A stretch of 64,000 bases of DNA from Enterococcus florum (lineage in GTDB: Bacteria > Bacillota > Bacilli > Lactobacillales > Enterococcaceae): positions 1-64,000 of the forward strand of contig NZ_BJCC01000006.1 in assembly GCF_004309355.1 (NCBI RefSeq). Direction: 5' to 3'. The position numbers and the translations under genes were made by a program. Shown piece by piece: positions 3,377-19,432 of the stretch. The number at the start of each line of letters is the position of its first letter. The stretch's first letter is position 1. Below the pieces are notes generated by a model that saw nothing but the letters and a program-made list of their open reading frames with translations, was not told where the DNA came from and made no database searches.

Positions 3377-3409
3377 TAAAAGGTAAGTGTCATTTAAGGA
3401 GGAATAAAA

Positions 3410-4973: not shown

Positions 4974-5254
4974 GATGTGTTTCAAGAAAATACAGGAATG
5001 CATATTTAAAGGCATTATTACCCATTTATTTAAGTATTCCATACTCTTGATCTGAAAAGAAATGGTAGACATTTTAGAATTTACTCATGCTAATAACATA
5101 AATAGAATATTAAATTATGTTCTCAAAAAGAAAGAGGGGAAATCTTGAAGGAAAGATATAAATATTTCAATCAGTATTGAGCAAAACTTCCAATGATTCG
5201 CTGAAATAAAGTCTTTAAAATGAAAGTCAAATAGAACAGAAAGAAGGAATAATC

Positions 5255-6169
5255 ATGAAACTAGGAATCGTTAGTGCTATTTTTGATCAAAGTAATTTCG
5301 AAGAGATGATTGATATCGTAGCAGAAAACGGTCTTGATTGTGTTGAAGTTGCTTGTTGGCCGGCAGGAAAAGCAGAAAGGCGATATGCGGGTGTATCCCA
5401 TATTGATACTAAAAATTTGACCCAAGAAAAAGCGGAAGAAATCTTAACTTACTGTAAACAAAAAAATGTGGAGTTGTCGGCTTTGGCTTATTATCCTAAT
5501 CCGTTGGATGAAAATTTAGCTAAGCGGCAAGAAGTGATTGATCATTTATACACTTTGATTGATGCAGCGAGCTTAATGAATATCAATTTAGTGACAACAT
5601 TTGTCGGACGTATGCCAAGTAAATCAGTTTCTGAAAATATTCAGGAAGCGGCTAATGTTTGGAACCCAATTGTAAAATATGCTGAAGAGAAAGAAGTGAA
5701 AATCGCGATTGAAAATTGTCCGATGCTCTTCACTGAAGATGAATGGCCAGGTGGACAAAATATCATGACCTCGCCAAGTAATTGGCGCAAAGTCTTTGAA
5801 GTGATCGACAGCGACTATTTTGGGATCAATTATGATCCATCACACTTCATTTGGCAGCGGATTGATTATATAAGCCCATTGTACGAGTTCAAAGACAAGA
5901 TTTTCCATGTTCATTACAAAGATATCAAGGTTTCTGCAGAAAAATTGGCTGATGTTGGTGTCATGGCAACCCCACTAGAATATATGAGTCCGAAGCTGCC
6001 TGGTTTAGGCGATGTTGATTGGGGAAAATACGTATCGGCATTAACTGATATTGGTTATGAAGGCTATACCTGTATTGAAGTGGAAGATAAGGCTTTTGAG
6101 AAAACTTATGAAGATGTGAAGAAATCTGTGGCATTAAGTACGAAATATTTAAGAAACTTCGTTATTTAG
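5255..6169 (+). CDS. Sugar phosphate isomerase/epimerase family protein (xylose isomerase-like TIM barrel)
   Basis: A 304-residue AP-endonuclease-2/xylose-isomerase-like TIM barrel. The expected metal ligands are visible: Glu in IAIENCP (about 152), Asp and His in YDPSHF (about 194-197), His residues in HVHYKD (about 218-220) and Glu in CIEVEDK (about 274). Members isomerise or epimerise free or phosphorylated keto sugars. The start has AGAAGGAAT upstream. It is followed by its own strong terminator and then by a ROK kinase, and the deglycosidase operon comes next. A role in processing the sugar released by that operon is plausible but not shown. Confidence 0.8.
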   Translation: MKLGIVSAIFDQSNFEEMIDIVAENGLDCVEVACWPAGKAERRYAGVSHIDTKNLTQEKAEEILTYCKQKNVELSALAYYPNPLDENLAKRQEVIDHLYTLIDAASLMNINLVTTFVGRMPSKSVSENIQEAANVWNPIVKYAEEKEVKIAIENCPMLFTEDEWPGGQNIMTSPSNWRKVFEVIDSDYFGINYDPSHFIWQRIDYISPLYEFKDKIFHVHYKDIKVSAEKLADVGVMATPLEYMSPKLPGLGDVDWGKYVSALTDIGYEGYTCIEVEDKAFEKTYEDVKKSVALSTKYLRNFVI

Positions 6170-6178
6170 AAAATTTAT

Positions 6179-6215
6179 ATGAAGAGAACGAGGAGATTCG
6201 TTCTCTTCATTTTTA
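6179..6215 (+). terminator. Intrinsic terminator after the isomerase gene
   Basis: A 13-base perfect stem (ATGAAGAGAACGA with TCGTTCTCTTCAT) with a six-base loop is followed by TTTT. It lies between the isomerase and the ROK kinase, so the kinase may depend on partial read-through. Confidence 0.85.
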
Positions 6216-6250
6216 GGTGTTAGGTCTTTTTAATTTGAGGAGGAAAAATA

Positions 6251-7216
6251 ATGATAAAACAAATGATCGGTATTGATATAGGTGGAACGGCGATCAAGTT
6301 AGCTCTGATTGATGTCTATGGAGAGATTCACAAGAAATGGCAGATCCCCACTAATATCTCGGATAATGGTAGAAAGATTCCAACCGACATCATCAGCAGT
6401 ATTCAACATACAATCCTTGATCAAAAGCATCAGGAATCGGAGATCATCGGTGTTGGCATCGGTGTTCCGGGTCCTATTTCACCAGACGGACAGACCGTTG
6501 TTCGTGCGGTCAATTTAGGGTGGGAAGATATGCCACTAAAATCCGCTATTGAAAAAGAGTTGGATATTCCTGTCGTACTTTTGAACGATGCCAATGCGGC
6601 GGCCTTAGGAGAAATGTGGAAGGGGGCAGCTAGAGGAAAAGCCAGTCTAGTTTTTATCACTTTAGGAACTGGTGTGGGAGGCGGAATCATTATTGATGGG
6701 AAGGTCATCAACGGTGTCCATTCTTCTGGCGGTGAGATTGGACATATTCCGGTTTATTCGGAAGAAAAGCGCGTGTGCGGCTGCGGCAATATTAATTGCT
6801 TAGAAACATTTGCTTCAGCTAATGGGTTTGTTAAAACGATGAAAATGTTGTTGCCAGATAAGACGACCAAATTTACCGCAGTTGATATTTTTGATTGGGC
6901 TAAAGCTGATGATTCCAAAGCTAAAGAGGCTTTAGCAATAACGGTGACTTATTTAGGTAAGGCGATTGCAGGTATCATGAATACGGTCGATGCCGAAGAA
7001 GTAGTTATTGGAGGCGGCTTGTCTGGAGCGGGAACTGCGCTATTAAAGCCGTTAAAAGAACAAATTGATCGTTCTATTTTTCCGGCGATTCGCGGAAATT
7101 ATAAATTAAGCAGGGCACAGTTGGGAAATGATGCTGGGATTTATGGTGCTGTTTATTCCTATTTATCAAGTGACGATAGTTTAACCTTCGAAGAGACGAC
7201 CGGCATAAATGCCTGA
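6251..7216 (+). CDS. ROK-family sugar kinase
   Basis: A 321-residue ROK (repressor/ORF/kinase) protein without the N-terminal winged helix, hence a kinase and not a repressor. Visible motifs are the N-terminal phosphate loop DIGGTAIKLALID, the catalytic LNDANAAALGE, the second phosphate loop ITLGTGVGGGII, the ROK signature GGEIGHIPV, and the zinc-binding CGCGNINCLE. Glucose, mannose, N-acetylmannosamine and allose kinases share this layout, so the sugar cannot be fixed. GGAGG precedes the ATG. It could phosphorylate the hexose released from glycosides by the downstream operon. Confidence 0.85.
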   Translation: MIKQMIGIDIGGTAIKLALIDVYGEIHKKWQIPTNISDNGRKIPTDIISSIQHTILDQKHQESEIIGVGIGVPGPISPDGQTVVRAVNLGWEDMPLKSAIEKELDIPVVLLNDANAAALGEMWKGAARGKASLVFITLGTGVGGGIIIDGKVINGVHSSGGEIGHIPVYSEEKRVCGCGNINCLETFASANGFVKTMKMLLPDKTTKFTAVDIFDWAKADDSKAKEALAITVTYLGKAIAGIMNTVDAEEVVIGGGLSGAGTALLKPLKEQIDRSIFPAIRGNYKLSRAQLGNDAGIYGAVYSYLSSDDSLTFEETTGINA

Positions 7217-7279
7217 TTTTGTCCTAAACCAATTGTTGGTAAAGACAAATAAGGAGCTTCGATATTGTTAGGACAAAAT
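7216..7279. repeat. 12-base inverted repeat between the kinase and deglycosidase operons
   Basis: ATTTTGTCCTAA at 7216-7227 is matched by its perfect complement TTAGGACAAAAT at 7268-7279, with a 40-base interior that holds a smaller ACCAATTGTTGGT dyad. There is no T run. It may be a weak terminator or a protein-binding site. Confidence 0.4.
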
Positions 7280-7342
7280 TAATGGGTTAAATTTTGATCT
7301 GAAACTTCTAATTTCTGAAGATAAAAAAAAAGAAGTGAGATT

Positions 7343-7384
7343 TTGCTGTATTTTTGAGTAAAATTAAAATGGAGTGCGCTTCCA
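7343..7384 (+). promoter_or_regulatory. Promoter and operator-like palindrome of the C-glycoside operon
   Basis: TTGCTG (7343-7348), a 16-base spacer and TAAAAT (7365-7370) make a plausible sigma-A promoter. Directly after it, TGGAGTGCGCTTCCA (7370-7384) is an imperfect palindrome with TGGA/TCCA arms over the likely transcription start, a typical place for a repressor. It matches the CcpA cre consensus only partly. The AraC-type protein at 14077 is a candidate regulator; the link is inferred. Confidence 0.45.
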
Positions 7385-7435
7385 AAAAAGCTTAAATTAT
7401 GAGTATAGCAAATAACAAAAAAGGAGGACATTCAA

Positions 7436-7894
7436 ATGTTCGATAATTTTTTAATTCGAAAAGATAGTTTGAAAAACGATGTTGATAAAGAGGGCAATGT
7501 CGTAGGATTTCAATTTGCGGCAAGAAACGCTAACTACCGGGGAGTATTTTTATCCCTTCATAATGGCTACTATATCAAGATTGATGACACCGAATATCCG
7601 AAAGAATTACAAACCTTTGAAATCAATGGAAAAGAACCTCGTGATTTTGAAGAAATCAAAACAGCCGTATGGGAGCATTGGGATTATGACGATGAAGGAA
7701 TCGTCCATGTGAAAAAGCCAGGGGGATTAGCCCCGGGGAAACATACTTTAGCCTTCCAACAATCGGTTCTGGCAGCATACGGATACATGCCAACAGATGA
7801 GGAGTGGGTAAAAAACCCTCCAGTTCCCGGTTCAGGTGCTGGATCAGATAAGACACGCAACATCGTAAAATACGATTTGGAATTGCAAGCATAG
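7436..7894 (+). CDS. dfgB: C-glycoside deglycosidase beta subunit (DUF6379-type)
   Basis: A 152-residue protein resembling the small subunit of bacterial C-glycoside deglycosidases (DfgB of Eubacterium cellulosolvens, DgpC of strain PUE). The pattern is an N-terminal MFDNFLIRKDSL, a central YIKIDDTEYP and a C-terminal proline/glycine-rich section before IVKYDLELQA. It is expected to be a compact beta-barrel without enzyme motifs of its own. In the known systems it forms a hetero-oligomer with the alpha subunit and helps shape the active site that breaks the C-C bond of 3-keto C-glucosides. AAGGAGG precedes the ATG, and the alpha subunit begins 17 bases downstream. The pairing with the alpha subunit is the main support for the call. 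Confidence 0.8.
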   Translation: MFDNFLIRKDSLKNDVDKEGNVVGFQFAARNANYRGVFLSLHNGYYIKIDDTEYPKELQTFEINGKEPRDFEEIKTAVWEHWDYDDEGIVHVKKPGGLAPGKHTLAFQQSVLAAYGYMPTDEEWVKNPPVPGSGAGSDKTRNIVKYDLELQA

Positions 7895-7910
7895 AAGGGA
7901 GCAATTAGTA

Positions 7911-9044
7911 ATGGGAAAAATCAAACGCGGTGTTTCATTTTATAGTTACCAACAAACGCAGTTTTTTAAAGAATTAGATTTAGAAGGACAGGTTAAAGAA
8001 GTCGGTACAAATCTTTTCGGAGCGGATGGGATCGAGATTCTAGATGAGATGTCCCTTCGACAATATCCAAACCCGCCAGAGGAATTTTTCGATCAATGGT
8101 TTGAATGGATGGATAAATACAAAACGACTCCTGTAACAATGGATGTGTTCCATGATGTATTGCAATTTCGGGATCATGTGATGAGCTATTCAGAATCAGC
8201 GGAGCGCTTGAAAAATGATATTCGTTTAGCGAAACGCTTAGGCTTTAAAAATGTTCGTACACTAGCAACCACACCAGTGGAGATCATGATTGAAGCTTTA
8301 CCAGTCGCGGAGGAATGCGATATCAAATTAGGCAAAGAAATCCACGCACCGATCCCGATCAATGGTCAATATGTCAATGAGATCGTGGATTATGCCAAGA
8401 AATCTGGCACTAAGCATTTAGGACTTGTTCCTGACTGGGGCATCTTCGCTTTTCGCCCTTCTGAAGCAGCGTTGGAATGGTACATGCGTCAAGGAGCGAA
8501 ACAAGAAAGCTGTGATCTAGTCGTTCAATTATGTATGGACAATCATTTAGGTAAGAGCAATGAATTAAATGAAATTGATCTTTCCCTATATAGTGCCGGC
8601 AATGTCCAATCTTTGTTCCACCGTTATTTGAAGCATGATGAAGCACCAGCTGATTTATTGCCAGCCTTCAAAAAAATGCAGCAAATGATTCGTGACAATG
8701 TGCCAAATTATACCGATATCGATTTTGAAGTCATGTCACAAGCACTATTGCTTTCTAGAACGAAACCAGAGGACTTAGGAGCGATCATGCCATACATCGT
8801 GAGTATCCACGGCAAATTTTACAATATGTCTGAAATCCCTGGAAACCCTGGTCAATATCAAGATATCGCTATTGATTACGAAGGACCAATCAAATTCTTG
8901 AAGGAAAATGGCTATGAGGGTTATATCAATTCAGAATATGAAGGCCAACGCTACTATCAAGACCGCACGGAAAAAGAACTAAATAATGAAATCGAACAAG
9001 TGAGAAGACATCAAGAAATGCTAAAACGATTGATTGGTGAATAG
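7911..9044 (+). CDS. dfgA: C-glycoside deglycosidase alpha subunit (TIM-barrel, metal-dependent)
   Basis: A 377-residue member of the sugar phosphate isomerase/epimerase superfamily resembling DfgA/DgpB, the catalytic subunit of C-glycoside deglycosidases. Candidate metal ligands and catalytic residues are Glu and His in GKEIHAP (about 143-145), Asp in LVPDWG (about 175), His in SIHGKF (about 299) and Glu in NSEYEG (about 341). Known enzymes cleave the bond between C1 of a 3-keto-glucosyl unit and the aromatic carbon. They need prior oxidation by a Gfo/Idh/MocA dehydrogenase, and two such genes lie downstream. GGGAG sits before the ATG. The start MGKIKRGVSFYSYQQ agrees with the barrel's first strand. 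An ordinary keto-sugar isomerase is the alternative if the beta subunit call is wrong. Confidence 0.8.
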   Translation: MGKIKRGVSFYSYQQTQFFKELDLEGQVKEVGTNLFGADGIEILDEMSLRQYPNPPEEFFDQWFEWMDKYKTTPVTMDVFHDVLQFRDHVMSYSESAERLKNDIRLAKRLGFKNVRTLATTPVEIMIEALPVAEECDIKLGKEIHAPIPINGQYVNEIVDYAKKSGTKHLGLVPDWGIFAFRPSEAALEWYMRQGAKQESCDLVVQLCMDNHLGKSNELNEIDLSLYSAGNVQSLFHRYLKHDEAPADLLPAFKKMQQMIRDNVPNYTDIDFEVMSQALLLSRTKPEDLGAIMPYIVSIHGKFYNMSEIPGNPGQYQDIAIDYEGPIKFLKENGYEGYINSEYEGQRYYQDRTEKELNNEIEQVRRHQEMLKRLIGE

Positions 9045-9045
9045 G

Positions 9046-10233
9046 ATGAATAAACAAGAGATCATTTATGTAGGCGCATGGGGCGCGGATATTCAAGGGG
9101 TAAATAATCCCGAAGCCGGCAATGGCGGGATCAAGGCCTATGATGCGGAAACGTTTGAGTTAGTCAGCAAAGTTACGCCAGATGTCAATGTCGGCAGTAT
9201 GGCGGTTGCTAAAAATGGTCGCTATATCTATGCCACGGATGAGCGCAAAGATCTAGGTGGTGTACATGGAAATGGCGGGGGTATCGCTGCTTATGCAGTT
9301 GATGCAGCTGGAAAACTTTCTTTCTTAAATGAAGTTTCTTCAGCCGGAGCCTATCCTTGCTACATTACAGTAGATAGTCAAAATAGATACGCTTTTGCGG
9401 CGAATCATGGCAATCATGAAGAAGTCATTACCCGAAGTGTGCGAACAGAACAAGGAACATATGCAGCCAAACGCTTCTTCGATGAAGGCAGCATCGCGAT
9501 GTTTCCGATCAAAACAGATGGGAGTTTAGGAGAATGCTGCGAACTTAAGGTTTTGGAAGGTTCTAGCGAATTGCCGCTATTCCAATGGACAAGTCATCCC
9601 CATAGTGTTTGTCTCGATCCAACCGAAAACTATCTCCTTTGTGCAGATAAGGGCTGCGATCTGATTCATGTCTATAAGATCGATTATGAAGTCGGAGCCT
9701 TGAAGGAAGTCTGGGCTCAAAAAACCGAAAAAGGATCAGGACCGCGACATATTGCGTTTCATCCAACCCAGCCGCTTCTTTATTGTAACAGTGAACAAAA
9801 TCATACAGTCCATAGTTACTCTTTTGATCCTCAAACAGGTGAGATGAACCATTTAAATCGCGCAGTTACAGTATCAGACGACTATCAACCAAAGGACGAT
9901 CCGACTGATATCTTCGCTCACAATCAAACCGCCGATCTGAAAGTCCATAAATCTGGCAACTTTTTATATGTCTCAAATCGCGGCGACGACAGCATCGCAA
10001 GCTATCGGCTGAATGGGGATGGAAAAATGCAATTGATCGAGATTATTTCTTCTGGCGGAGCGATACCTCGCAGTATCAATTTTGATTTAGCGGGTGAACA
10101 GTTATATGTCGTAAATCAACGTTCTGGTACGATCAATAAGTTTTCAGTCGATGATGATAGTGGAAAGTTAACAAATACAGACTCAGAAATTCAAGTCAAT
10201 AATCCAGTGAATATTCAATTTAGTGAGAGATAG
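9046..10233 (+). CDS. Lactonase-family seven-bladed beta-propeller protein (6-phosphogluconolactonase-like)
   Basis: A 395-residue protein of the lactonase/YbhE-type propeller family. Repeated blade ends such as YIYATDERKD, NRYAFAANHG, ENYLLCADKG, PLLYCNSEQN, NFLYVSNRGDDSI and QLYVVNQRSGT are visible, and HSVCLDP and GPRHIAFHP carry the family's conserved His-containing loops. Members hydrolyse 6-phosphogluconolactone or related aldonolactones. The ATG at 9046 follows the alpha-subunit stop by one base, so translation is probably coupled; an in-frame TTG at 9034 is less likely. In this operon it may open a lactone formed from the oxidised sugar; that step is inference. Confidence 0.8.
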   Translation: MNKQEIIYVGAWGADIQGVNNPEAGNGGIKAYDAETFELVSKVTPDVNVGSMAVAKNGRYIYATDERKDLGGVHGNGGGIAAYAVDAAGKLSFLNEVSSAGAYPCYITVDSQNRYAFAANHGNHEEVITRSVRTEQGTYAAKRFFDEGSIAMFPIKTDGSLGECCELKVLEGSSELPLFQWTSHPHSVCLDPTENYLLCADKGCDLIHVYKIDYEVGALKEVWAQKTEKGSGPRHIAFHPTQPLLYCNSEQNHTVHSYSFDPQTGEMNHLNRAVTVSDDYQPKDDPTDIFAHNQTADLKVHKSGNFLYVSNRGDDSIASYRLNGDGKMQLIEIISSGGAIPRSINFDLAGEQLYVVNQRSGTINKFSVDDDSGKLTNTDSEIQVNNPVNIQFSER

Positions 10234-10250
10234 AAAGAAGGAAGAGACAA

Positions 10251-11363
10251 ATGGAAAAACTAAAAATCGGTATTATCGGTACAGGAGGTATTTGCAACAA
10301 CAAACACCTGCCGTCTTTAGAAAAAGTTGCAGATAAAGCGGAAGTCGTGGCGTTATGCGATATCGAAGAAGAAAAAGCGTTAGCAACGGCTGAACGTCAC
10401 AATCTAACCGATGTCAAAATCTACACAGATTACCATGAATTGTTGAAGGACCCAAGTATTGATATTGTTCATGTGTGTACTCCAAACGTATCTCATTGTG
10501 AGATCACAGTCGCAGCGTTCGCGGCTGACAAGCATGTGTTATGTGAAAAACCAATGGCAGCGACCACAGAAGATGCCCGTAAAATGATGGAAGCTTGGAA
10601 AAAGAGCGACAAGAAATTTACTGTTGGCTATCAAAATCGCTTCCGGCATGATGTACAGGTATTGAAGAAATCATGTCAAGCTGGTGATTTAGGGGATATT
10701 TACTATGGTGAAGCCAATGCGATTCGTCGTAAAGCCGTACCAACTTGGGGTGTCTTTCCAGACAAATCGAAGCAAGGCGGCGGTCCATTGATCGATATTG
10801 GCACTCACGCATTAGATATTACGTTATGGTGCATGGACAACTATGAAGTGGATAGTGTGAGCGGTCAAGTCTTCTATAAATTGGGTAATTTGCCATCAGC
10901 AGCGGAAGGCAATACCTACGGTGCTTGGGATACTGAAACCTTTGAAGTAGAAGACTCAGCGATGGGCTTTATCAAATTCAAAAATGGTGCGTTGATCAAC
11001 CTGCGAGCATCGTGGGCATTGAACTATATGGATGCCAGAGAAGCGGCAACGACGCTTTGCGGAACCTTAGAAGGTGCTGAAATCAAATACGGCGGCAGCT
11101 ATGAAAATGCGGAACTGTGGTTTAACCATACGCGTCATGGAAAAATGAGTGAAGAAACCTTATCAGGCGAAGCGTTAGTGGATTATTTTGAAGGCGTCAA
11201 TGAGCCGGCTGGAGTGGTTGAAGCAAAGCAATGGATCGATGCGATTTTGACAGATGGCGAGCCGTGTGTGAAGCCAAGTGAAGCCTTCAAAGTTACACAA
11301 ATTTTAGATGCGATCTACCAAGCTTCTGATGGAAATCAAACAATCAAATTAGCGATGGAATAA
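10251..11363 (+). CDS. Gfo/Idh/MocA-family oxidoreductase (candidate glycoside 3-dehydrogenase)
   Basis: A 370-residue NAD(P)-dependent dehydrogenase. It has the Rossmann motif GIIGTGGICNNKHLP, then HVCTPNVSH, the catalytic-lysine motif CEKPMA (Lys about 101), and the substrate-domain motif GGGPLIDIGTHALD with the usual Asp and His. DgpA-type enzymes of this family oxidise C3 of C-glucosides so the deglycosidase can act. Position within the operon makes this or the next oxidoreductase the best candidate; the sequence alone does not decide which. GAAGGAAG lies before the ATG. A terminator-like hairpin follows at 11371, so the next gene may be expressed at a lower level. Confidence 0.82.
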   Translation: MEKLKIGIIGTGGICNNKHLPSLEKVADKAEVVALCDIEEEKALATAERHNLTDVKIYTDYHELLKDPSIDIVHVCTPNVSHCEITVAAFAADKHVLCEKPMAATTEDARKMMEAWKKSDKKFTVGYQNRFRHDVQVLKKSCQAGDLGDIYYGEANAIRRKAVPTWGVFPDKSKQGGGPLIDIGTHALDITLWCMDNYEVDSVSGQVFYKLGNLPSAAEGNTYGAWDTETFEVEDSAMGFIKFKNGALINLRASWALNYMDAREAATTLCGTLEGAEIKYGGSYENAELWFNHTRHGKMSEETLSGEALVDYFEGVNEPAGVVEAKQWIDAILTDGEPCVKPSEAFKVTQILDAIYQASDGNQTIKLAME

Positions 11364-11370
11364 GCTGAAT

Positions 11371-11403
11371 AAGACGGTCAAGTATTGGCCGTCTTTTTTT
11401 AAA
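11371..11403 (+). terminator. Internal terminator between the two oxidoreductases
   Basis: AAGACGGTCA at 11371-11380 pairs with TGGCCGTCTT at 11386-11395 (one G-U pair) and runs into seven Ts. It may give partial termination inside the operon. Confidence 0.75.
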
Positions 11404-11422
11404 AAGAAAGGACGGAATTATC

Positions 11423-12517
11423 ATGAAATACAGATATGCAGTAGTCGGATACGGCTTTATCGGTCGCCGTCATGTAGCGACGCTAAAAAGTATAGACAAT
11501 GTAGATTGCGTAGCGGTTTGTGACACAAATCCGCAACGGTTAGAAGAAGTACGTGAGATTTATCCAGAAATTGAGATTTATAGAACAATTGACCAGCTTT
11601 TGGAAGAGTCAGATATTAACGGTGTGATCATCTCGGCAAACAATAACCAGCACAAAGAATTAGTCATAAAATCCGCACGGGCAGGAATGGATATTATTTG
11701 TGAGAAACCTGCTGCAATGAGTGTAGCGGAATTCGATGAGATGATGGAGGCCGTTGATCAAGCAGGCGTTACCTTAACGGTTCATCAGCAACGTCGCTTT
11801 GATAAGGATTTTCAAACCATCAAGAAATGCTACGAAGACAGGTCTTTAGGCGATGTTTATACGATCAAGAGCTCGTTATACGGCTACAACGGTAATATGC
11901 ATGATTGGCATGTATATAAATCTGAGGGGGGCGGCATGCTTTATGATTGGGGTGTTCATCTGATCGATCAGATTTTGTATATGATGGATAGTCCATTGAA
12001 AGCAGTCTTTGCGGATATTCGCAATGTAATCAATAAAGAAGTCGATGATTATTTCAATATTCTGCTGCGTTTTGAAAATGGTGTGACGGCTGAGATAGAA
12101 CTAGGAACCTATTACCTATCGGATCAAAAAGACTGGTTCGAACGTCACTGGTATATGGGCGGCAATACTGGAAGCATGTACGCTAATAAGTTCGATCCAG
12201 AGGGCAAGATCGTTCGTACAACGAAACTATTAGAAAACGTGAATGAAGATCAAGATAAATCAGCCAAGTCTTACGGGCCAACTCGTTCATTCGGTGTGCC
12301 GGAACCAGGTTTGATCGTGACTGAAGACATTCCAAAAGTCGAGACAGAACATATTGAATTCTTCGAAAATTACTTTGCCACCTTGGCCGGAAAGGCTGAA
12401 CTTTTAGTTAAACCGCAAGAAGTTCGTAAAGTATTGGAAGTTATGGAAGCCTGTTGGAAGTCTGCCGAAACGTTCTCAAGTGTGGCATTTGAGCCATCTA
12501 TGGAAGTAAAAGTCTAG
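11423..12517 (+). CDS. Gfo/Idh/MocA-family oxidoreductase
   Basis: A 364-residue paralogue-type oxidoreductase with the nucleotide-binding motif AVVGYGFIGRRHVA, VCDTNPQRL at the end of strand 2, CEKPAAM with the catalytic lysine, and GGGMLYDWGVHLIDQIL in the substrate domain. It is clearly different in sequence from the preceding oxidoreductase, so it is not a recent duplicate. Possible roles are oxidation of a second glycoside class, or reduction of the released 3-keto sugar to recycle cofactor. AAAGGAC precedes the ATG, and the MFS gene starts 19 bases after the stop. Confidence 0.82.
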   Translation: MKYRYAVVGYGFIGRRHVATLKSIDNVDCVAVCDTNPQRLEEVREIYPEIEIYRTIDQLLEESDINGVIISANNNQHKELVIKSARAGMDIICEKPAAMSVAEFDEMMEAVDQAGVTLTVHQQRRFDKDFQTIKKCYEDRSLGDVYTIKSSLYGYNGNMHDWHVYKSEGGGMLYDWGVHLIDQILYMMDSPLKAVFADIRNVINKEVDDYFNILLRFENGVTAEIELGTYYLSDQKDWFERHWYMGGNTGSMYANKFDPEGKIVRTTKLLENVNEDQDKSAKSYGPTRSFGVPEPGLIVTEDIPKVETEHIEFFENYFATLAGKAELLVKPQEVRKVLEVMEACWKSAETFSSVAFEPSMEVKV

Positions 12518-12536
12518 TTTTTAAGGGGAAATAAAC

Positions 12537-13892
12537 ATGCAAGAAAATGTAGTAAGTAACTTTATTGATAATAGTAAACTCGGAAAATTTCATGTTACAT
12601 TGGTCGCTTTGGGGGTCTTTCTGATTGCCTTTACCGGGTATGGTGCGACAGCTTATGGATCAATTATCACTTCAATTACGTCTGAATGGAACTTGAATGC
12701 GACAGTGTTGGGATATATGGGTAGTTTATCCGAATTTGGTTCGATGTTTGGTGCAGTAATCTTAAGTATCATCAGCAATCGTTTAGGTGTGAAAAAGGTC
12801 TTGATCGGTTCGGTCTTGATGTTCTGTGTCTTTACCTTTGGACAATCCGTAGTGAATACTCCAGTTTTATTCGCAATTTTCCGATTTTTTGCAGGGGTTG
12901 GTTTTGGTGGGGTAATTCCGTTGGTCATTTCATTGTTGTCGGAATATGCGCCAAAGAGCAGCAAAAGTAAATCCGTGGCAATCGCTTTGTGCGGGAATCA
13001 AATCGGCTCGATCATTGCTTCTTTGTTAGCAATCGTGATTCTGCCACGTTTGGGATGGCGTCCGGTGCTGTGGATGGCCTTCGTTCCTGTTTTGTTTTTG
13101 TTTTTCATTATTAAACTCGTGCCAGAGTCAGCCCAGTATTTAGTGAAGCACAAGGAAACTGAAAAGCTGAAAAAAGTTCTGGGGAGAATTGATCAGGATT
13201 ACACTAAAAAGATCAATCTTGAGCAGTTGGAGACTATGAACAATGAAAGTATGCATTCAGAAAATAAAGTATCATACTTTGCTCTATTTAATAGTCGTTT
13301 CATTCTCGTGACGTTATTGGCTTGTATCATTTATATTATGGGGCTGCTTTTCATCAACGGAGTCATTGTTTGGCTGCCGGGGGTAATGATACAAAATGGG
13401 TTCTCTTTAGGCTCCAGCTTAGCTTTCTCGATTTTCTTAAATGTGGGAACGATTGCGGGGACGGTAGTTTGGGGAGCTGTGGCTGATCGCAAAGGTTTTA
13501 AGATACTCTTGCCAGCTGTTTATGGCATCGGAGCAGTTGTATTGATGCTGATGGGTGTAAAAACCAATATCATCATTTTGTATCTTTTTGTATTCTTAAT
13601 TGGTTTCTTCTTGTTCTCAGCTCATAGTTTAGTGAATGCATTTGTTTCACAACACTATCCAGAAGAATTACGGACTTCAGCAGTTGGTTTGGTGAACAGT
13701 GTCGGTCGGCTAGGCGGAATCTTTGGTCCAACATTAGGTGGTCTGCTATTATCCGCCAATGCTTCAATCAGTACCTGGTTCGTTACCTTTGGTGCTACCG
13801 GCTTGATTGCTGCAATATCATTCGTAGCAATCAATCTGATTACCAAGGTAAAGGATGCTGAAATAGATAAAGCGGATGCTGTTGAAGGGTAA
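12537..13892 (+). CDS. MFS transporter, possibly for glycoside or aromatic substrate
   Basis: A 451-residue major facilitator protein with about 12 membrane helices. The loop SNRLGVKKVLIGS between helices 2 and 3 fits the family's motif A, and ADRKGFKILLP is its counterpart in the second half. FRFFAGVGFGGVIPLVISLLSEYAP resembles the R-x-x-x-G-x-G-x-G-G segment of the sugar and aromatic-acid:H+ symporter branches. It is the last gene of the C-glycoside operon and may import the glycoside or export or import the phenolic aglycone. AGGGG is visible before the ATG. Confidence 0.78.
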   Translation: MQENVVSNFIDNSKLGKFHVTLVALGVFLIAFTGYGATAYGSIITSITSEWNLNATVLGYMGSLSEFGSMFGAVILSIISNRLGVKKVLIGSVLMFCVFTFGQSVVNTPVLFAIFRFFAGVGFGGVIPLVISLLSEYAPKSSKSKSVAIALCGNQIGSIIASLLAIVILPRLGWRPVLWMAFVPVLFLFFIIKLVPESAQYLVKHKETEKLKKVLGRIDQDYTKKINLEQLETMNNESMHSENKVSYFALFNSRFILVTLLACIIYIMGLLFINGVIVWLPGVMIQNGFSLGSSLAFSIFLNVGTIAGTVVWGAVADRKGFKILLPAVYGIGAVVLMLMGVKTNIIILYLFVFLIGFFLFSAHSLVNAFVSQHYPEELRTSAVGLVNSVGRLGGIFGPTLGGLLLSANASISTWFVTFGATGLIAAISFVAINLITKVKDAEIDKADAVEG

Positions 13893-13905
13893 TCGAAATG
13901 AATAG

Positions 13906-13950
13906 TAGCAAAAGCAGTTGGTAAAGAATTATCAGCTGCTTCTTTTGCTA
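13906..13950 (+). terminator. Hairpin at the end of the C-glycoside operon
   Basis: TAGCAAAAG (13906-13914) pairs with CTTTTGCTA (near 13942-13950), with an inner CAGTTG/CAGCTG pairing and an imperfect middle. No long T run follows. Confidence 0.45.
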
Positions 13951-13971
13951 AGTGATGCTCAGGAAGGCTAG

Positions 13972-13999
13972 TTACTTACTGAAACTGTTTTGCTATAAT
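13972..13999 (+). promoter_or_regulatory. Promoter of the AraC-GH39 regulator gene
   Basis: TATAAT (13994-13999) preceded by TGC gives an extended -10, with a weak TTACTT about 16 bases upstream. The untranslated leader is about 70 bases. Confidence 0.5.
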
Positions 14000-14076
14000 T
14001 GGTCAATAAGCTAAATTACTTGGCTGCTATACAGCTTGATAAAGGAACTGAGATTTAGCTGATAAGGAGGATAAAA

Positions 14077-16521
14077 ATGGAAAAGGATTATCTCTCTTCG
14101 GATTTATTAATGGATGTTGAATTTACGACTCAAGGTGAAACAAAGACCCATTACCACGAAAATTTTGAGCTCTTATATGTATTGAATGGTGAATTATCGA
14201 TCATTGTCGAAGGCGAAGAGTATCAGCTGAAGCAAAAAGACTTGATCATTATTAATTACAATCGTAAGCATCGCTACATAGGTTCAGATGATCTTTTTCT
14301 TGCCCGCTTCGTTATTTCATACAGCAAGGTAAAAGAGTTATTATCCAATGATATGATTTTATTTTGGTGCAATTCGACTTTGGAAAAAAATGAATCTTAT
14401 GACGAAATGAGAAAAATCATCGATCAGATTCTCAATCAGCAGATCATGACCAATCATAAAAATCAAATCTATAAAATGAGTTTGTATTATCAATTGCTTC
14501 ATGTGATTTCCAAGAATTTTCTTTTAACTTCAGAGAATGTACGCTATCAATCGGAGAAGAAGAGCGACAGTCGGATGGAAGAAATTTTTCAATTCATTCG
14601 CGCAAATTATCAGAAGAGCATCACTTTGCAGGAATTAGCTGATCATTTCTTTCTTTCGACGGCGTACTTGTCAAAATATATCAAAAAGAAATGCAATGTC
14701 AGTTTTACGGATTTGGTCAATTCTGTGCGACTGACACACTCTATGACCGATTTGCTGTATACGGATGCTTCCATCATGAAGATCGCGATGGACAACGGCT
14801 TTGCCAGTGTGGCGGCTTACAATAAAGTTTTTAAAGAAGCCTACGACATGACGCCATCTCTATTTCGAAAAAATTCAGTGACTGCTGAGAAGAAGGAACG
14901 CGATACGCAAGATAGTGATCAGTTACGTGAACGATTAAATAGCTATCTGAATGAGAACAAGATCACGGATGATCAAGATGAGGAAAGTCATGATCGCAAT
15001 ATTTCTTTCATGCTGGATAAGCAGAATATTTATAAGCAAACGAGCTATTATAGCAAGCTGATCAATGCCGGAACAGCAATTGATTTGACCAAGTCAGATT
15101 TTCAGGAGCAGATCATCTATTTGAAGAATAAGCTTGGTGCAGAATATATTCGCTTCTGGGATATTTATGACCCTAATCTATACTTAGACATCCATGCTCC
15201 GAAAGAGGCTTTAAACTTCAGCAAACTGGATACAGTGATTGATTTCCTAGTCAAGAATCAATTGAAGCCTTATATTGAACTTGGTTCTAAACCCATTCGC
15301 TTATTAAAAAATACTCAAGATGCTTTGGTGGAGATCCCGAGAAATGAAAACTTCGATTCGGCGGAAGAGATGCAGCGCTTTTTTAGAGAATTGATCCGGC
15401 ATTTTATTAAGCGTTATGGATCAGAAGAAGTTCAACAGTGGTATTTTGAATATTGGAAAAAAGAAGACATCGCCTTTCTCGATTTACGCTATAATTATTC
15501 GCCGCAGACCGAAGACGTGCATCGTAAATACTTTGCAACTTTTGATAAAATTGCCGGAACGCTTAGAAAAATATTACCAGACATCAAAATCGGCGGCGGT
15601 GGTTTTCCGGTGCAGCACTATGGAAATAAAGGCTTTAGCGATCTGTTATCTTTATGGCAAGAGTACGATGAAAAACCGAATTTTTTGACGATTACTTGCT
15701 ATCCTTATCAGTTGGAAAAGGAATCAGATAACTATTATGAAAAGAAATCAACGGATGTTTTCTTTATCAAACATAATTTGGAAGTCGTTAAGGAATCAAT
15801 GGAGCATAGTGATTTTCCGGACACTCCGATTCATGTTTCTGAATACAGCTTGACACTTTCCAATCGTAATCCAGTCAACGATCATTGTTCGAAGGGAAGC
15901 TATCTGATCCAAAATATGATCTCGACCATCGGAGGCGCTGAGCTGTTTGGTCATTGGTTGGGAACGGATATCTATGCCGATCTGCAAGATTCTCAAGGTT
16001 TTCTTTTTGGGGGATGCGGGTTACTTACGAAGACGGGTGTGGCGAAACCAGCGTTCTATGCACTTGAATTTCTAAACTCACTTTATGAAGATGTCTATTA
16101 TAAAGAGAAACACTGCATCATCACAGGGAACACAAGAGGATCATTTCGTATCGCATGTCATAATTACCGTAAGTTGAATTTCAATTACTATTTGATGGAT
16201 GAGAGCAAAATCCAATTAGATAACTTACAAAATCTGTTTGAAGATAATGAGTCTTTGACCTTGAATATCGATATCAATGGTGTCGAAAATGGCAGTTATG
16301 TCATCAAATCGCGCGTGGTGAATCGATCGCATGGCAGTGTACAAGATGAATGGAGCCGCTTTGACTTAAAAGAATTGAGTATGAACGAACAAGATTATCT
16401 GCATCGGATCAGCACGCCAAGACTCTTGAACACAAAAGTCAAAGTTGAAAACAGTCGACTGCAATTTTCGATTCATCTAAAGCCTCATGAAATACGTTAT
16501 TTACACGTGACAGCTGAATAA
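14077..16521 (+). CDS. AraC-family regulator fused to a GH39-like domain
   Basis: An 814-residue three-part protein. Residues 1 to about 140 form a cupin-like sensor (THYHENFELLYVLNGEL, then a KQKDLIIINYNRKH strand). Residues about 167-267 form two AraC helix-turn-helix units (ITLQELADHFFLSTAYLSKY and IMKIAMDNGFASVAAYNKVFK). Residues about 320-814 resemble glycoside hydrolase family 39. In GH39 enzymes the acid/base Glu sits in an N-E-P motif; here the equivalent stretch reads YFEYWKKED (about 453-461), with Lys-Lys in its place. The nucleophile-like Glu in HVSEYS (about 587) remains. This suggests a catalytically dead, sugar-sensing domain. It lacks a signal peptide and has AAGGAGG before the ATG. 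It probably controls the operon to its left, the PTS operon to its right, or both. Confidence 0.85.
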   Translation: MEKDYLSSDLLMDVEFTTQGETKTHYHENFELLYVLNGELSIIVEGEEYQLKQKDLIIINYNRKHRYIGSDDLFLARFVISYSKVKELLSNDMILFWCNSTLEKNESYDEMRKIIDQILNQQIMTNHKNQIYKMSLYYQLLHVISKNFLLTSENVRYQSEKKSDSRMEEIFQFIRANYQKSITLQELADHFFLSTAYLSKYIKKKCNVSFTDLVNSVRLTHSMTDLLYTDASIMKIAMDNGFASVAAYNKVFKEAYDMTPSLFRKNSVTAEKKERDTQDSDQLRERLNSYLNENKITDDQDEESHDRNISFMLDKQNIYKQTSYYSKLINAGTAIDLTKSDFQEQIIYLKNKLGAEYIRFWDIYDPNLYLDIHAPKEALNFSKLDTVIDFLVKNQLKPYIELGSKPIRLLKNTQDALVEIPRNENFDSAEEMQRFFRELIRHFIKRYGSEEVQQWYFEYWKKEDIAFLDLRYNYSPQTEDVHRKYFATFDKIAGTLRKILPDIKIGGGGFPVQHYGNKGFSDLLSLWQEYDEKPNFLTITCYPYQLEKESDNYYEKKSTDVFFIKHNLEVVKESMEHSDFPDTPIHVSEYSLTLSNRNPVNDHCSKGSYLIQNMISTIGGAELFGHWLGTDIYADLQDSQGFLFGGCGLLTKTGVAKPAFYALEFLNSLYEDVYYKEKHCIITGNTRGSFRIACHNYRKLNFNYYLMDESKIQLDNLQNLFEDNESLTLNIDINGVENGSYVIKSRVVNRSHGSVQDEWSRFDLKELSMNEQDYLHRISTPRLLNTKVKVENSRLQFSIHLKPHEIRYLHVTAE

Positions 16522-16523
16522 GT

Positions 16524-16573
16524 AAAGACCTGAAATGCCTCTAACTCAGCAGAGGCAACTCAGGTCTTTTTTT
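16524..16573 (+). terminator. Intrinsic terminator after the AraC-GH39 gene
   Basis: AAAGACCTGA pairs with TCAGGTCTTT, an inner GCCTCT pairs with AGAGGC, and the hairpin ends in seven Ts. Confidence 0.85.
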
Positions 16574-16582
16574 GGACAAAAT

Positions 16583-16612
16583 TTGACTGTCATATTATTG
16601 CTTTTCTAAAAT
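16583..16612 (+). promoter_or_regulatory. Promoter of the PTS operon
   Basis: TTGACT (16583-16588), an 18-base spacer and TAAAAT (16607-16612) form a good sigma-A promoter. The leader to the ATG is about 155 bases. I see no clear LicT-type antiterminator hairpin in it. Confidence 0.55.
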
Positions 16613-16772
16613 CGCCTTTATTTTTTTGGAGAAAAACAGCCAAATATGCTCACCATATTGCGTATAACTTCGGATGAGTTCATGCTGGAAAGCTTCTATT
16701 ATTAGCAGTAAGAAAGAGTTATCTTTGCAGGATCAAAACGCATTACAAAAAGGAGAAAGGACTTAAATTGAG

Positions 16773-18647
16773 ATGAGTGAAAAAGAACAAATTCATGGTA
16801 TTACTCAAGGAGAGATTGTTCCATTAAGAAAGGTAAAAGATCCAATTTTTTCTGAGGGGATGATGGGAAAAGGGGTGGCGATGAGACCGTCCTTAGGAGA
16901 GGTGTATGCTCCGTTTGATGGTGTCGTAGTTAGCGTATTCCCAACAAAACATGCGATTACTTTGAAAAGTGATCAGGGCTGTGAAGTGCTAATCCATGTA
17001 GGCATTGACACAGTCAACTTGAATGGTGAGCTTTTAGAGCCGCTCGTTTCTGAAACTGATCGAGTAAAAACCGGTGAGCTTATTATGCGCTTCAATTTAT
17101 CACAGATCCGTGAAAGAGGGTATGATACCATCATTCCATTAGTGATCCTCAATACGCCTGATTATGAAACGTTTGACACTACTAATGAGACGAATGGCAA
17201 TCAAGAGACTCTCTTAATGGCAATCAAGAAAGCAGCAACTTCAATAGAAGTAAAAGAAACAAATCAAAAGGAAATTGCCTTAGAACACGCTATTATTCGT
17301 ACATTAGGCGGCAAAGACAATATTACTTCGATCGGCCATTGCGCCACCCGGTTAAGAATCAATTTGAAGGATGAAAAAGTGGTGGATGAAGAGAAGCTTG
17401 AAAAGATACCGGGAGTTCTAGGTGTCGTCAAATCAATGGGCGGACTGCAAGTCGTAATCGGGAATACGGTCAATCAAGTTTACGCCAACATTCAAAAACT
17501 CTATCATATCGAAAATTCGACAGAAGAGAACAAAGAAAAGGGATCAATTCCTAATCGGATCTTGAATGTTCTGTCAGATATTTTAAGTCCGGCTGTTCCC
17601 TTGATTATGGCTAGTGGATTCATCTCGGCCATTTTGGTGATTATGACCAGATTAGGAATGGATCAGGAAAGCTCGAGCTATGTGATCTTGAATGGTGCGG
17701 CCAATGTTGTTTTCTATTTTTTACCAGTCATGCTGGCCTATACTGCATCAAAACGCTTTAAGTGTAATACGATTTATGCGCTATTTTTAGGCGGCTTGTT
17801 CCTGCATCCAGATATTATGGGGTTCGCTTCAAAAGGCGGGAGCGTTGATCTATTTCATTTGCCGGTAACGGCTGTCGATTATTCTTCTAGTTTGCTGCCG
17901 ATCGTTTTAAGCGTTTGGGTGCTGTCATATGTGGAAAAACTAGCGGATAAATATGTTCCAGATGCGGCCAAATATGTTTTCAATCCATTTGCGATTGTTG
18001 TAGTCATGTTACCGATTGCTTTATGTATCACTGGCCCAGCAGGGTATTTACTAGGTGAAGGCATTGGCAGTATTTTGACTTTGATCTATAGTCACGCTAG
18101 CTGGTTAGCGATCTTGCTAATTGCTTCTTTTGCGCCGCTTTTAGTAATGACGGGGATGCACATCGCTTTAACACCAATCATTATATTAGCGAACTTTGAA
18201 CATTTAGGGTATGACAACATGTTACTGATCGCCTTTATCGGAATGAACTTTTCGCAATTTGCCGTAGCGTTAGCCGTGATGCTCAAGACAAAAAAACGCA
18301 ATTTGAAACAGCTTGCAGCTAGCTGTGCCATCACCGCATTTTTAAGTGGAATCACTGAACCGACACTCTATGGAATCAGTGTGAAACTGAAAAAACCATT
18401 TTATGCGACATTCATTGGTTGTATTGCGAATGGAATATTTTGTGCAATCGCTAATGTTAAAGTCTTCTCTTTTGCTCCACCATCCTTCTTTACGTTGCCG
18501 ATTTTCATGAATCCAGATGGGTCTAATACAAATTTTATACTAGCTCTATGTACGGTTGGTCTTACGATCGTCGTCACTTTTGTCGCTACGTGGATACTTG
18601 GTTTTGATGATTCTGTTTTTGATACTGAGAGTTTAGAGGAAGCATGA
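16773..18647 (+). CDS. Glucoside-type PTS transporter EIIABC, domain order A-B-C
   Basis: A 624-residue phosphotransferase permease. The N-terminal EIIA domain (about 1-150) has both conserved His residues (KHAITLKS and LIHVGIDTVNLNG, the second being the phosphorylated one). EIIB (about 170-250) has the phosphocysteine motif GHCATRLRINL. EIIC (about 260-620) has about ten membrane segments and GITEPTLYG. The usual BglF order is B-C-A, so the A domain has moved to the front. It should import and 6-phosphorylate a beta-glucoside-like sugar. No phospho-beta-glucosidase gene accompanies it; the partner is a HAD phosphatase that overlaps its stop codon by four bases. Confidence 0.88.
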   Translation: MSEKEQIHGITQGEIVPLRKVKDPIFSEGMMGKGVAMRPSLGEVYAPFDGVVVSVFPTKHAITLKSDQGCEVLIHVGIDTVNLNGELLEPLVSETDRVKTGELIMRFNLSQIRERGYDTIIPLVILNTPDYETFDTTNETNGNQETLLMAIKKAATSIEVKETNQKEIALEHAIIRTLGGKDNITSIGHCATRLRINLKDEKVVDEEKLEKIPGVLGVVKSMGGLQVVIGNTVNQVYANIQKLYHIENSTEENKEKGSIPNRILNVLSDILSPAVPLIMASGFISAILVIMTRLGMDQESSSYVILNGAANVVFYFLPVMLAYTASKRFKCNTIYALFLGGLFLHPDIMGFASKGGSVDLFHLPVTAVDYSSSLLPIVLSVWVLSYVEKLADKYVPDAAKYVFNPFAIVVVMLPIALCITGPAGYLLGEGIGSILTLIYSHASWLAILLIASFAPLLVMTGMHIALTPIIILANFEHLGYDNMLLIAFIGMNFSQFAVALAVMLKTKKRNLKQLAASCAITAFLSGITEPTLYGISVKLKKPFYATFIGCIANGIFCAIANVKVFSFAPPSFFTLPIFMNPDGSNTNFILALCTVGLTIVVTFVATWILGFDDSVFDTESLEEA

Positions 18648-19432
18648 TGGAGAAAAAGTTATTTGTCTTTGATCTTGATGGTACTTTGCTGACGAGTAAC
18701 AATCAAATTTTACCAAGTACGATTGTTGCTTTAGATTATTTAAAAAGAGATCATACAATCATGTTGGCTACAGGTAGAAGCCGTTTCTTGATTCAAGATT
18801 ATTTGGATCAACTATCGATCAAGGATTATATCGTTTGTAACGGTTCGGCTGCTTTTCTAAATGATCAACAAGTTTATAAAAATACTTTGGACAAGGACAA
18901 ATTAGCCAGTTTGTTAGAGTATTTCCATGATCAAAAAATTGATATCGCTTTAACTGGTTTAGATAATTTCTGTCGGATTTCTTCTTTTCGTGTCGAAAAA
19001 ATGGAACAGGCGATGCGTTCGATTGGCGGACTAATCCCAGAGTATCAGCCGCAATTTTATCAAGAAAATGACATTTATCAAGGTTTGGCTTTTTACGATG
19101 CGACGAATGATCAACTATTTGAAAAAGAGTATCCAGAATTTCGTTTTGTCCGGTGGCATCAATTATTTGTAGACATTGTGCCGAACCAAGGATCAAAAGC
19201 TGTGACTCTGCATGAAGTTGCTGCTGAGTTAGGAATATCAAAGAAGAACATCATTGCTTTTGGCGATGAGAACAATGATATCGAGATGTTACAGGAAGCT
19301 GGGATTGGCATAGCTATGGGAAACGCGAACAATTCTGTAAAAGCTGTCGCTGATTTTATTACTAGAACTAATGATGATGATGGAATAGTTTATGCAATGG
19401 AAAAGTTGAATTTATTACAACAAAAAAATTGA
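18644..19432 (+). CDS. Cof-type HAD-superfamily sugar phosphatase
   Basis: A 262-residue HAD IIB (Cof) hydrolase. Motif I is VFDLDGTLLTSNN with the nucleophile and acid/base Asp pair, motif II is MLATGRSR, the conserved Lys is in NQGSKAVTL, and motif IV is AFGDENNDIEML. Such enzymes dephosphorylate sugar phosphates and similar small molecules. Its start overlaps the PTS stop (ATGATG), so the two are translationally coupled. In this setting it may remove the phosphate that the PTS adds to its substrate. An alternative ATG lies three bases downstream. Confidence 0.85.
   Translation: MMEKKLFVFDLDGTLLTSNNQILPSTIVALDYLKRDHTIMLATGRSRFLIQDYLDQLSIKDYIVCNGSAAFLNDQQVYKNTLDKDKLASLLEYFHDQKIDIALTGLDNFCRISSFRVEKMEQAMRSIGGLIPEYQPQFYQENDIYQGLAFYDATNDQLFEKEYPEFRFVRWHQLFVDIVPNQGSKAVTLHEVAAELGISKKNIIAFGDENNDIEMLQEAGIGIAMGNANNSVKAVADFITRTNDDDGIVYAMEKLNLLQQKN

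Follow-up and report, generated by a model that had tools for sequence, protein, structure and literature searches.

Two described bacterial systems for C-glycoside cleavage, DgpABC of strain PUE, which acts on puerarin, and DfgABE of Eubacterium cellulosolvens, combine the same type of alpha/beta C-glycoside deglycosidase (CGD) with a 3-oxidase of the Gfo/Idh/MocA family. Here we analysed positions 1-64,000 of contig NZ_BJCC01000006.1 of Enterococcus florum (GCF_004309355.1), a 64,000-nt stretch hereafter called the window, in which a CGD-type gene pair lies next to genes for a lactonase, two Gfo proteins and a carrier. This cluster is very probably a C-glucoside salvage operon working by oxidation and elimination, a judgement that leaves the identity of the substrate aside. 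The CGD pathway is known already and C-glycoside-cleaving Enterococcus strains have been reported (PMC10772555, PMC6537369); new, as far as we searched, are the clade of this pair, its lactonase, its aglycone-side neighbours and the resulting substrate prediction.

In AgCGD2, the alpha residues E147, D179, H269, K271 and E305 are reported to bind the metal and to be required, and His149 and Glu307 to belong to the proposed mechanism (Mori 2021, PMC8563793), while Tyr39 of the beta subunit of PuCGE, the CGD of strain PUE, is reported to matter for C-glucosides (Bitter 2023, PMC10628242). The oxidase D3dgpA is described as carrying out C3 oxidation of C-glucosides with bound NAD(H) in a ping-pong reaction, the acceptor being either 3-oxo-glucose or the corresponding methyl glycoside (PMC11239390), and CarABC/PurABC of soil actinobacteria as joining a CGD to C3 oxidation by an FAD enzyme (PMC12724307). 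The latter source also names Enterococcus among the holders of DgpABC, and several dgpBC sets are reported in Catenibacillus (PMC11170127).

The alpha/beta pair and its cluster

An initial annotation of the window had recognised the beta and alpha subunits of a CGD from family patterns, and this identity was borne out: the beta protein matches Pfam CGDB (PF19906, 1.7e-35) and the alpha protein matches eight distinct CGD-type PDB sequences (2e-50 to 2.7e-22). The metal ligands align with those of known CGDs, the equivalents of the AgCGD2 ligands being E143, D175, H300, K302 and E342 and those of His149 and Glu307 being the base H145 with E344, as assigned by motif and by alignment to solved CGDs other than AgCGD2. 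These residues are invariant across 19 aligned alphas, except that H300 is Q in Actinoplanes. Additionally, Y34 of the beta subunit aligns with PuCGE Tyr39, as counted on the alignment, and is invariant in 18/18 betas. Single-chain structure predictions gave the alpha a lid of helices between residues 185 and 291 (pLDDT 85-97 by 10-residue block), a lid that is present in PuCGD and AgCGD2 and absent in EuCGD. Furthermore, the pair showed no kinship to any clade of other known function. These data, together with the matches of the two Gfo proteins, support the assignment of the pair as a CGD with partner glycoside 3-oxidases. The genes and features of the cluster are the following:

5255..6169, + strand: iso, TIM barrel of the AP_endonuc_2 family (PF01261, 6e-39), candidate 2-hydroxy-3-keto-glucal hydratase
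6251..7216, + strand: ROK family glucokinase (NCBIfam TIGR00744, 265.5 bits, cutoff 260.35)
7350..7435, no strand: conserved block upstream of beta, possible regulatory region (E. phoeniculicola alignment)
7436..7894, + strand: CGD beta subunit (DUF6379/CGDB), 152 aa
7911..9044, + strand: CGD alpha subunit, TIM barrel with helical lid, 377 aa
9034..10233, + strand: 7-bladed beta-propeller lactonase (PF10282, 4.7e-80), start TTG 9034 or ATG 9046
10251..11363, + strand: gfo1, DgpA-type glycoside 3-dehydrogenase (PDB 7xr9 DgpA, 1.2e-149, residues 1-365)
11371..11395, + strand: terminator-like hairpin between gfo1 and gfo2, 11 pairs with T tail, no commoner than chance
11423..12517, + strand: gfo2, DgpA2-type glycoside 3-dehydrogenase (PDB 9m37, P581a DgpA2 with isoorientin, 7e-121)
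12537..13892, + strand: major facilitator superfamily (MFS) carrier, nearest aromatic acid/H+ symporters (TIGR00895, 3.3e-78, 263.4 bits, below the cutoff of 418.55)
14077..16521, + strand: AraC-type regulator fused to a GH39-like domain (PF12833, PF01229)
16773..18647, + strand: phosphotransferase system (PTS) EIIA-B-C (PF00358, PF00367, PF02378)
18644..19432, + strand: Cof-type haloacid dehalogenase (HAD) phosphatase (PF08282, 1e-62)

Coordinates and Pfam matches agree with the earlier description of the content, order and common strand from beta to the carrier and of the short gaps (16, -11, 17, 59 and 19 nt from beta to MFS). The description of the host as Enterococcus-like was confirmed. 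The interval given at that time, 7343..13892, turned out to be too short, with iso and ROK upstream and AraC-GH39, PTS and HAD downstream being co-conserved. A single 13.97 kb alignment with Enterococcus phoeniculicola, which is placed in a different genus of the same family, covers window positions 5160-19095 at 82.4% identity; it begins ahead of iso, includes PTS and stops within HAD, at the end of the fetched locus, and the unit is therefore larger than first reported. In the cluster of a Niallia plasmid the PTS is conserved at 66%, and the MFS protein shares 51% identity with one from Niallia that carries the annotation aromatic acid/H+ symporter. A single upstream promoter had also been proposed and found no support: 51 promoter-like sites were found and 55.2 were expected from shuffles, and the 12 terminator-like hairpins (11.5 expected by chance), two of them inside the unit at 6179-6210 and 11371-11395, are hence no evidence of function. 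With both kinds of site at chance level, one operon from one promoter was left unproven.

Sugar-side genes and the proposed pathway

The host genome contains four CGDB genes above the curated cut-off in three clusters (C6, which is the window, C22 and C32), the C32 cluster carrying two alpha/beta pairs. All three clusters contain iso, ROK, gfo1 and gfo2, with identities between clusters of 75-78%, 52-58%, 50-63% and 49-70%, respectively; the corresponding values are 24-42% for alpha, 25-35% for beta, 22-24% for MFS and 23-29% for AraC. Conserved sugar-side genes next to diverged CGD pairs are what a sugar product shared by all clusters would lead one to expect, and this pattern suggests that the clusters of one genome differ mainly in aglycone specificity. 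The C22 alpha is near the solved P581a DgpC1 (5.1e-133), C32 alpha1 near W974-1 DgpC2 (5.5e-122) and PUE DgpC (3.2e-98) and C32 alpha2 near the Deinococcus aerius CGD (2.8e-93), and the window alpha has no comparably near solved relative. We found no relevant paper on P581a or W974-1, from which the solved relatives of the two Gfo proteins and of the C22 and C32 alphas come.

The two Gfo proteins had been proposed to supply the 3-keto sugar, and their full-length kinship to DgpA, with DgpA and DgpA2 as best solved matches, backs this role. Likewise, iso and ROK would fit the last steps, iso as the putative 2-hydroxy-3-keto-glucal hydratase. In the proposed pathway, the MFS or PTS carrier would import the glucoside and the lactonase would most likely first open a lactone in the substrate. 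gfo1/gfo2 would then oxidise the 3''-OH of the glucose, the alpha-beta metal enzyme would eliminate the aglycone across the C-C bond to give 2-hydroxy-3-keto-glucal, and iso may hydrate this compound to 3-keto-glucose. Reduction of 3-keto-glucose to glucose by gfo1/gfo2 would restore their NAD+, making the loop redox-neutral, and the ROK kinase would finally produce glucose-6-phosphate. Gene content, family membership, catalytic residues, predicted folds and the sugar-side genes conserved between paralogous clusters are the grounds observed here; C3 oxidation with a 3-oxo-glucose acceptor, metal-dependent elimination, hydration and reduction are taken from papers on relatives, and the hydratase role of iso, the transport and lactonase steps and the substrate are our own proposals.

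Regarding regulation, the block upstream of beta contains a catabolite-responsive element (cre)-like site with one mismatch at 7371, weaker in E. phoeniculicola as read by eye. This single match means little because 14 one-mismatch sites occur in 20 kb, most of them inside genes (7.2 in mononucleotide shuffles), and CcpA control of the window cluster was rejected. In the C22 cluster, the region separating AraC from MFS contains a perfect cre-like palindrome (L015:7857), which would fit the carbon repression of C-deglycosylation reported for an E. faecalis strain. The GH39-like domain of the AraC fusion (14077-16521) lacks NEP, the expected acid/base motif of GH39 enzymes, at the aligned place, as do 22/22 proteins aligned, and this domain may therefore be an inactive enzyme that serves to sense glucosides.

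Elsewhere in the genome, the C32 cluster lies beside transposase-like and integrase-like pieces (L014:653-2932, read by eye from translations), and a fourth cluster without CGD (L016:5323-9221) encodes a Gfo, a TIM barrel, a 243-aa protein and a second Gfo; one of its Gfo proteins is 51-59% identical to the gfo1 proteins, and it is perhaps an O-glucoside version. At the left edge of the window cluster (1628-4912) lie genes for an arylsulfotransferase-family protein with a thioredoxin-like end and a DASS anion symporter, which were dropped as pathway members, E. phoeniculicola having an MFS gene there. The window also holds a transposase-like fragment near the contig start (587-886, translation read by eye) and a 2086-aa surface-type protein (20791-27051) with 16 List_Bact_rpt stretches, DUF285 and leucine-rich repeats.

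A rare CGD subclade linked to a lactonase

Trees were built from 55 alphas and 52 betas, with some long branches; three loci (L141-L143) were left out of them and placed by identity and alignment. The window pair belongs to a group that comprises 26 alphas (support 100/100) and 25 betas (100/99), and in both trees this group excludes the other three pairs of the host genome. Inside it, a subclade of 12 alphas with a long lid (99/98) comes from Enterococcus, Lachnospiraceae, Cohnella, an alphaproteobacterial metagenome-assembled genome (MAG), Propionibacteriaceae and Actinoplanes. Subclade betas are 61-93% identical to the window beta (58% for a second MAG copy) and share the conserved C-terminal stretch YGYxPTDEEWVK...GSGAGSDKT, and L141-L143 are 52-88% (alpha) and 67-80% (beta) identical to the window proteins. 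The group is rare: beta matches at E<=1e-30 were found in 7/397 genomes of the Catenibacillus family, 1/394 of the Actinoplanes class and 1/392 of the Cohnella order, counts that each include the genome on which the search was centred. Any CGDB gene was found in 5/394 actinomycetes, of which, by appearance, Actinoplanes alone has one of this clade. In a short-lid sister group (L065-L071, L095-L100), betas are 66-73% identical to the window beta (L099 43%) and alphas 41-46% by BLAST (L099 34-36%; six aligned 49-52%), so that the beta is better conserved than the alpha, the reverse of what is expected for a small accessory subunit; in this group, a single beta is followed by two alphas in Catenibacillus scindens (L066:8315-11047).

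Fifteen subclade loci were counted (window, L056-L064, L074, L094 and L141-L143). A beta-propeller lactonase is encoded in seven of them (window, its near copy L056, L063, L064, L074, L142 and L143), which span Bacillota, Pseudomonadota and Actinomycetota, and in 0/40 other stretches, from the short-lid sister group and other clades, at 1e-15; these stretches represent 36 places, four genomes having given two each. In the window and in E. phoeniculicola, Cohnella, Novosphingobium and Pantoea, -11 to +9 nt separate the alpha stop from the start of the lactonase. The Actinoplanes lactonase comes after alpha as well, and that of the MAG (L063) is located ~4 kb off, on the opposite strand. These lactonases are of two sorts, ~28-35% identical to each other. 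Contig C27 of the host genome encodes a second lactonase, with 31% identity across the matched part. A PF04909 amidohydrolase occurs in 4/15 loci (L057, L058, L062, L141), with 70-100% identity to that of Niallia, neither protein in 4/15 (L059-L061 and L094, within the DNA covered) and both in 0/15. This exclusivity has a chance of ~0.05, suggestive only, and in some hosts the amidohydrolase may replace the lactonase.

Aglycone-side neighbours and bergenin as a possible substrate

Bergenin, in clinical use as a drug, is described as the lactone of 4-O-methyl gallic acid 2-C-glucoside (PMC11053098). The idea that a compound of this type might be the substrate came from the lactonase and the aromatic-acid-type carrier and preceded the comparison with plasmids. 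The cluster on plasmid pSA2 of Novosphingobium resinovorum includes a VanA_C Rieske protein, a VanB-type reductase, a gallate dioxygenase (NF009904, 748.6 bits, cutoff 412), 4-oxalomesaconate tautomerase, LigK aldolase and amidohydrolase, a gene list that matches bergenin breakdown step by step. In Pantoea piersonii p174224, VanA_C Rieske and VanB genes adjoin those for Gfo, isomerase and glucokinase; beyond them, as far as ~18 kb from alpha, come genes with the annotations galB, aldolase and tautomerase. A gallate dioxygenase of the NF009904 type is not found on this plasmid, which has a catechol-type extradiol dioxygenase, below the model cutoff, instead. Cohnella has DUF1932, catechol-type extradiol dioxygenase and galB- and LigK-like genes (41-45%) and no VanA, and Actinoplanes has VanA (74%), VanB (58%), dioxygenase, tautomerase and an aldolase truncated where the stretch ends. 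These four hosts are aerobic. Thus, where the flank is long enough, lower-pathway genes accompany the lactonase in 4/4 aerobic hosts and VanA does so in 3/4; aerobic controls from other clades (n=10: L072, four actinomycete genomes and five plasmids) have them in 2/10 and 0/10, respectively. The Fisher values, 0.011 for VanA and 0.015 for the lower pathway, or 0.022 (3/5) and 0.047 (4/5) with Niallia added, are descriptive, the comparison having been devised after the first two plasmids were seen and the loci being related.

Two further features were noted in these neighbourhoods. A DUF1932 NAD-binding oxidoreductase is found near the CGD-lactonase clusters of Cohnella (L064:17342-18241), Actinoplanes (L074:4231-5052), Novosphingobium (L144:5430-6287) and, by similarity, Pantoea (L145:10718-11605), and the Pantoea plasmid has a second beta-propeller lactonase (L145:15088-16398), 52% identical to the CGD-adjacent one and near an extradiol dioxygenase gene.

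The initial annotation had proposed the removal of glucose from plant C-glucosides, which seems very probable; its substrate, plant polyphenols in general, is unsupported or incomplete. The wider neighbourhoods of the relatives, with lactonase and VanA/VanB/gallate-type genes, point to a lactone-bearing hydroxybenzoate C-glucoside of the bergenin type rather than puerarin, orientin or mangiferin, a prediction for and against which we see about equal chances. In the bergenin variant of the pathway, the lactonase would open the ring, DgpA (a GMC oxidase in aerobes) would oxidise C3'' and the CGD would cut the C-C bond; aerobic hosts would then O-demethylate 4-O-methylgallate and cleave gallate, and Enterococcus and its gut relatives would keep only the glucose. 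An O-demethylase of the Enterococcus host was sought and rejected: no VanA_C gene is present in the genome, and other gallate genes, sought in the 64 kb window, were not found there.

Alternative readings

Several results weigh against the bergenin part of this reading. VanA/VanB/gallate-type genes are absent from the window, from the 21 kb of E. phoeniculicola, from the lactonase-free Niallia locus (29 kb) and from L057-L062 and L094 (6.5-19 kb), and neither the host genome nor that of E. phoeniculicola has a VanA_C gene. LigK-type and extradiol dioxygenase genes also lie near the CGDs of the two positive controls (L152 and L161), and the L161 set is of the protocatechuate type, which makes lower-pathway genes alone weak evidence. 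In a Deinococcus control two SMP-30/gluconolactonase-type genes occur within ~11 kb of the CGD, so lactonases near CGDs are not unique to this subclade. We therefore hold it possible, on a tentative basis, that the same pathway serves a flavonoid or xanthone C-glucoside (puerarin, orientin or mangiferin) and that a sugar lactone produced by one of the Gfo proteins is what the lactonase hydrolyses. Gfo-type enzymes can make lactones, and the window lactonase resembles the gluconolactonase 6igb (1.3e-23). In addition, the CGDs assayed in Mori 2021 (PMC8563793) are reported to take flavonoid C-glucosides, carminic acid and similar compounds as substrates, and the Enterococcus strains described in PMC10772555 and PMC6537369 to cleave puerarin or orientin. 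The sugar chemistry, however, would be common to the other two clusters of the genome, yet the lactonase is restricted to this subclade (7/15 vs 0/40), and VanA/VanB and gallate-type genes cluster with its lactonase-bearing members.

Other points touch the CGD assignment and the pathway itself. Tyr303 and Asn144 of PuCGE are replaced by Q346 and A146 in the window alpha (ungapped count), so aglycone binding differs, and iso matches the solved hydratase AtHYD (8ro4) weakly (3.9e-5) and other TIM barrels better (2zds 1.9e-16, IolE 5.1e-6, 3cny). Furthermore, PuCGE is reported to cleave 3-keto O-glucosides too, and a sequence-unrelated O-glucoside eliminase to have effectively the same Mn2+ site (PMC10628242). 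A natural O-glucoside substrate is thus possible, but 3-keto O-glucosides of phenolic acids as the main substrates of the pair seem improbable to us: the isolated PuCGE alpha is reported to retain ~1.4% of native O-glucoside activity and none on C-glucosides (PMC10628242), and a strongly conserved beta with its Tyr therefore suggests C-glucoside substrates. Alpha relatives on plasmids are annotated as sugar phosphate isomerase or xylose isomerase, which would suit an isomerase/epimerase operon unrelated to C-glycosides; with the metal ligands and CGD kinship described above, we regard this as highly improbable.

Possible spread of the operon and significance

In comparison with E. phoeniculicola, dN/dS (the ratio of nonsynonymous to synonymous substitutions) is 0.008 for alpha and 0.009 for gfo1. 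Synonymous divergence (dS) ranges over 0.57-0.95 across the six-gene block that runs from beta to MFS; iso has 1.46 and PTS 2.73, ROK and AraC are saturated, and an rpoB fragment stands at 1.30. Since the values from beta to MFS lie below those of the flanks and of rpoB, a single yardstick gene, they suggest a more recent exchange of the central block. The alpha on the Niallia plasmid, from shrimp gut, is 88% identical to that of the window, and viral spread was discarded, no relative having appeared among the viral contigs scanned with beta. CGD clusters of Enterococcus lie on large plasmids too, as five Enterococcus raffinosus plasmids (~1 Mb; H32-H36) bear a distant CGD-alpha-like gene, 26% identical to the window alpha.

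CGD enzymes decide the gut activation of C-glucoside drugs and food compounds, and for the assayed ones that we encountered the test compounds had been flavonoid C-glucosides, mangiferin and carminic acid. If confirmed, a link of one CGD clade with a lactonase and gallate catabolism would extend this chemistry to hydroxybenzoate C-glucosides and provide candidate genes for bacterial bergenin breakdown. Among the open-licence PMC papers listed by our searches on bergenin, no title or abstract start described bacterial bergenin-catabolism genes, and a Dorea strain is reported to be unable to convert bergenin. We are evenly divided on the broader proposal, in which the lactonase-linked subclade would be the route by which bacteria use bergenin-type compounds that moves between hosts, plasmids included, with aerobes finishing the gallate, Enterococcus and gut relatives keeping the glucose only and the amidohydrolase perhaps replacing the lactonase. 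The propeller gene, whose presence the initial annotation had noted correctly and left without a role, would be offered one by this proposal.

Comparison with known systems

DgpABC and DfgABE share the metal ligands and base of the window pair. In structure alignments the window alpha is 26-29% identical to DgpC and 38-39% to DfgA, and the beta 24% to DgpB and 20-23% to DfgB; unlike these systems, the window has lactonase, iso and ROK in the same unit. The Deinococcus aerius CGD (8qvc, 8umc) has a beta of 125 aa, shorter than the 152 aa of the window beta with its conserved C-terminal stretch. AtHYD, which catalyses the expected next step, is a TIM barrel like iso, distant as their match is (3.9e-5). 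CarABC/PurABC, compared by description only, rely on an FAD enzyme, and three lactonase-bearing relatives of the window pair (Actinoplanes, Novosphingobium and Pantoea) have a GMC oxidase; the window differs in using NAD-dependent Gfo proteins. We found no paper on the CGD-lactonase clusters of Novosphingobium pSA2 and Pantoea p174224 among the open-licence PMC papers that our searches listed. These two clusters have the same beta-alpha-lactonase order as the window, with alphas 52-54%, betas 67-69% and lactonases 28-31% identical to those of the window, and differ from it in having a GMC oxidase instead of DgpA and VanA/VanB and gallate-type genes nearby.

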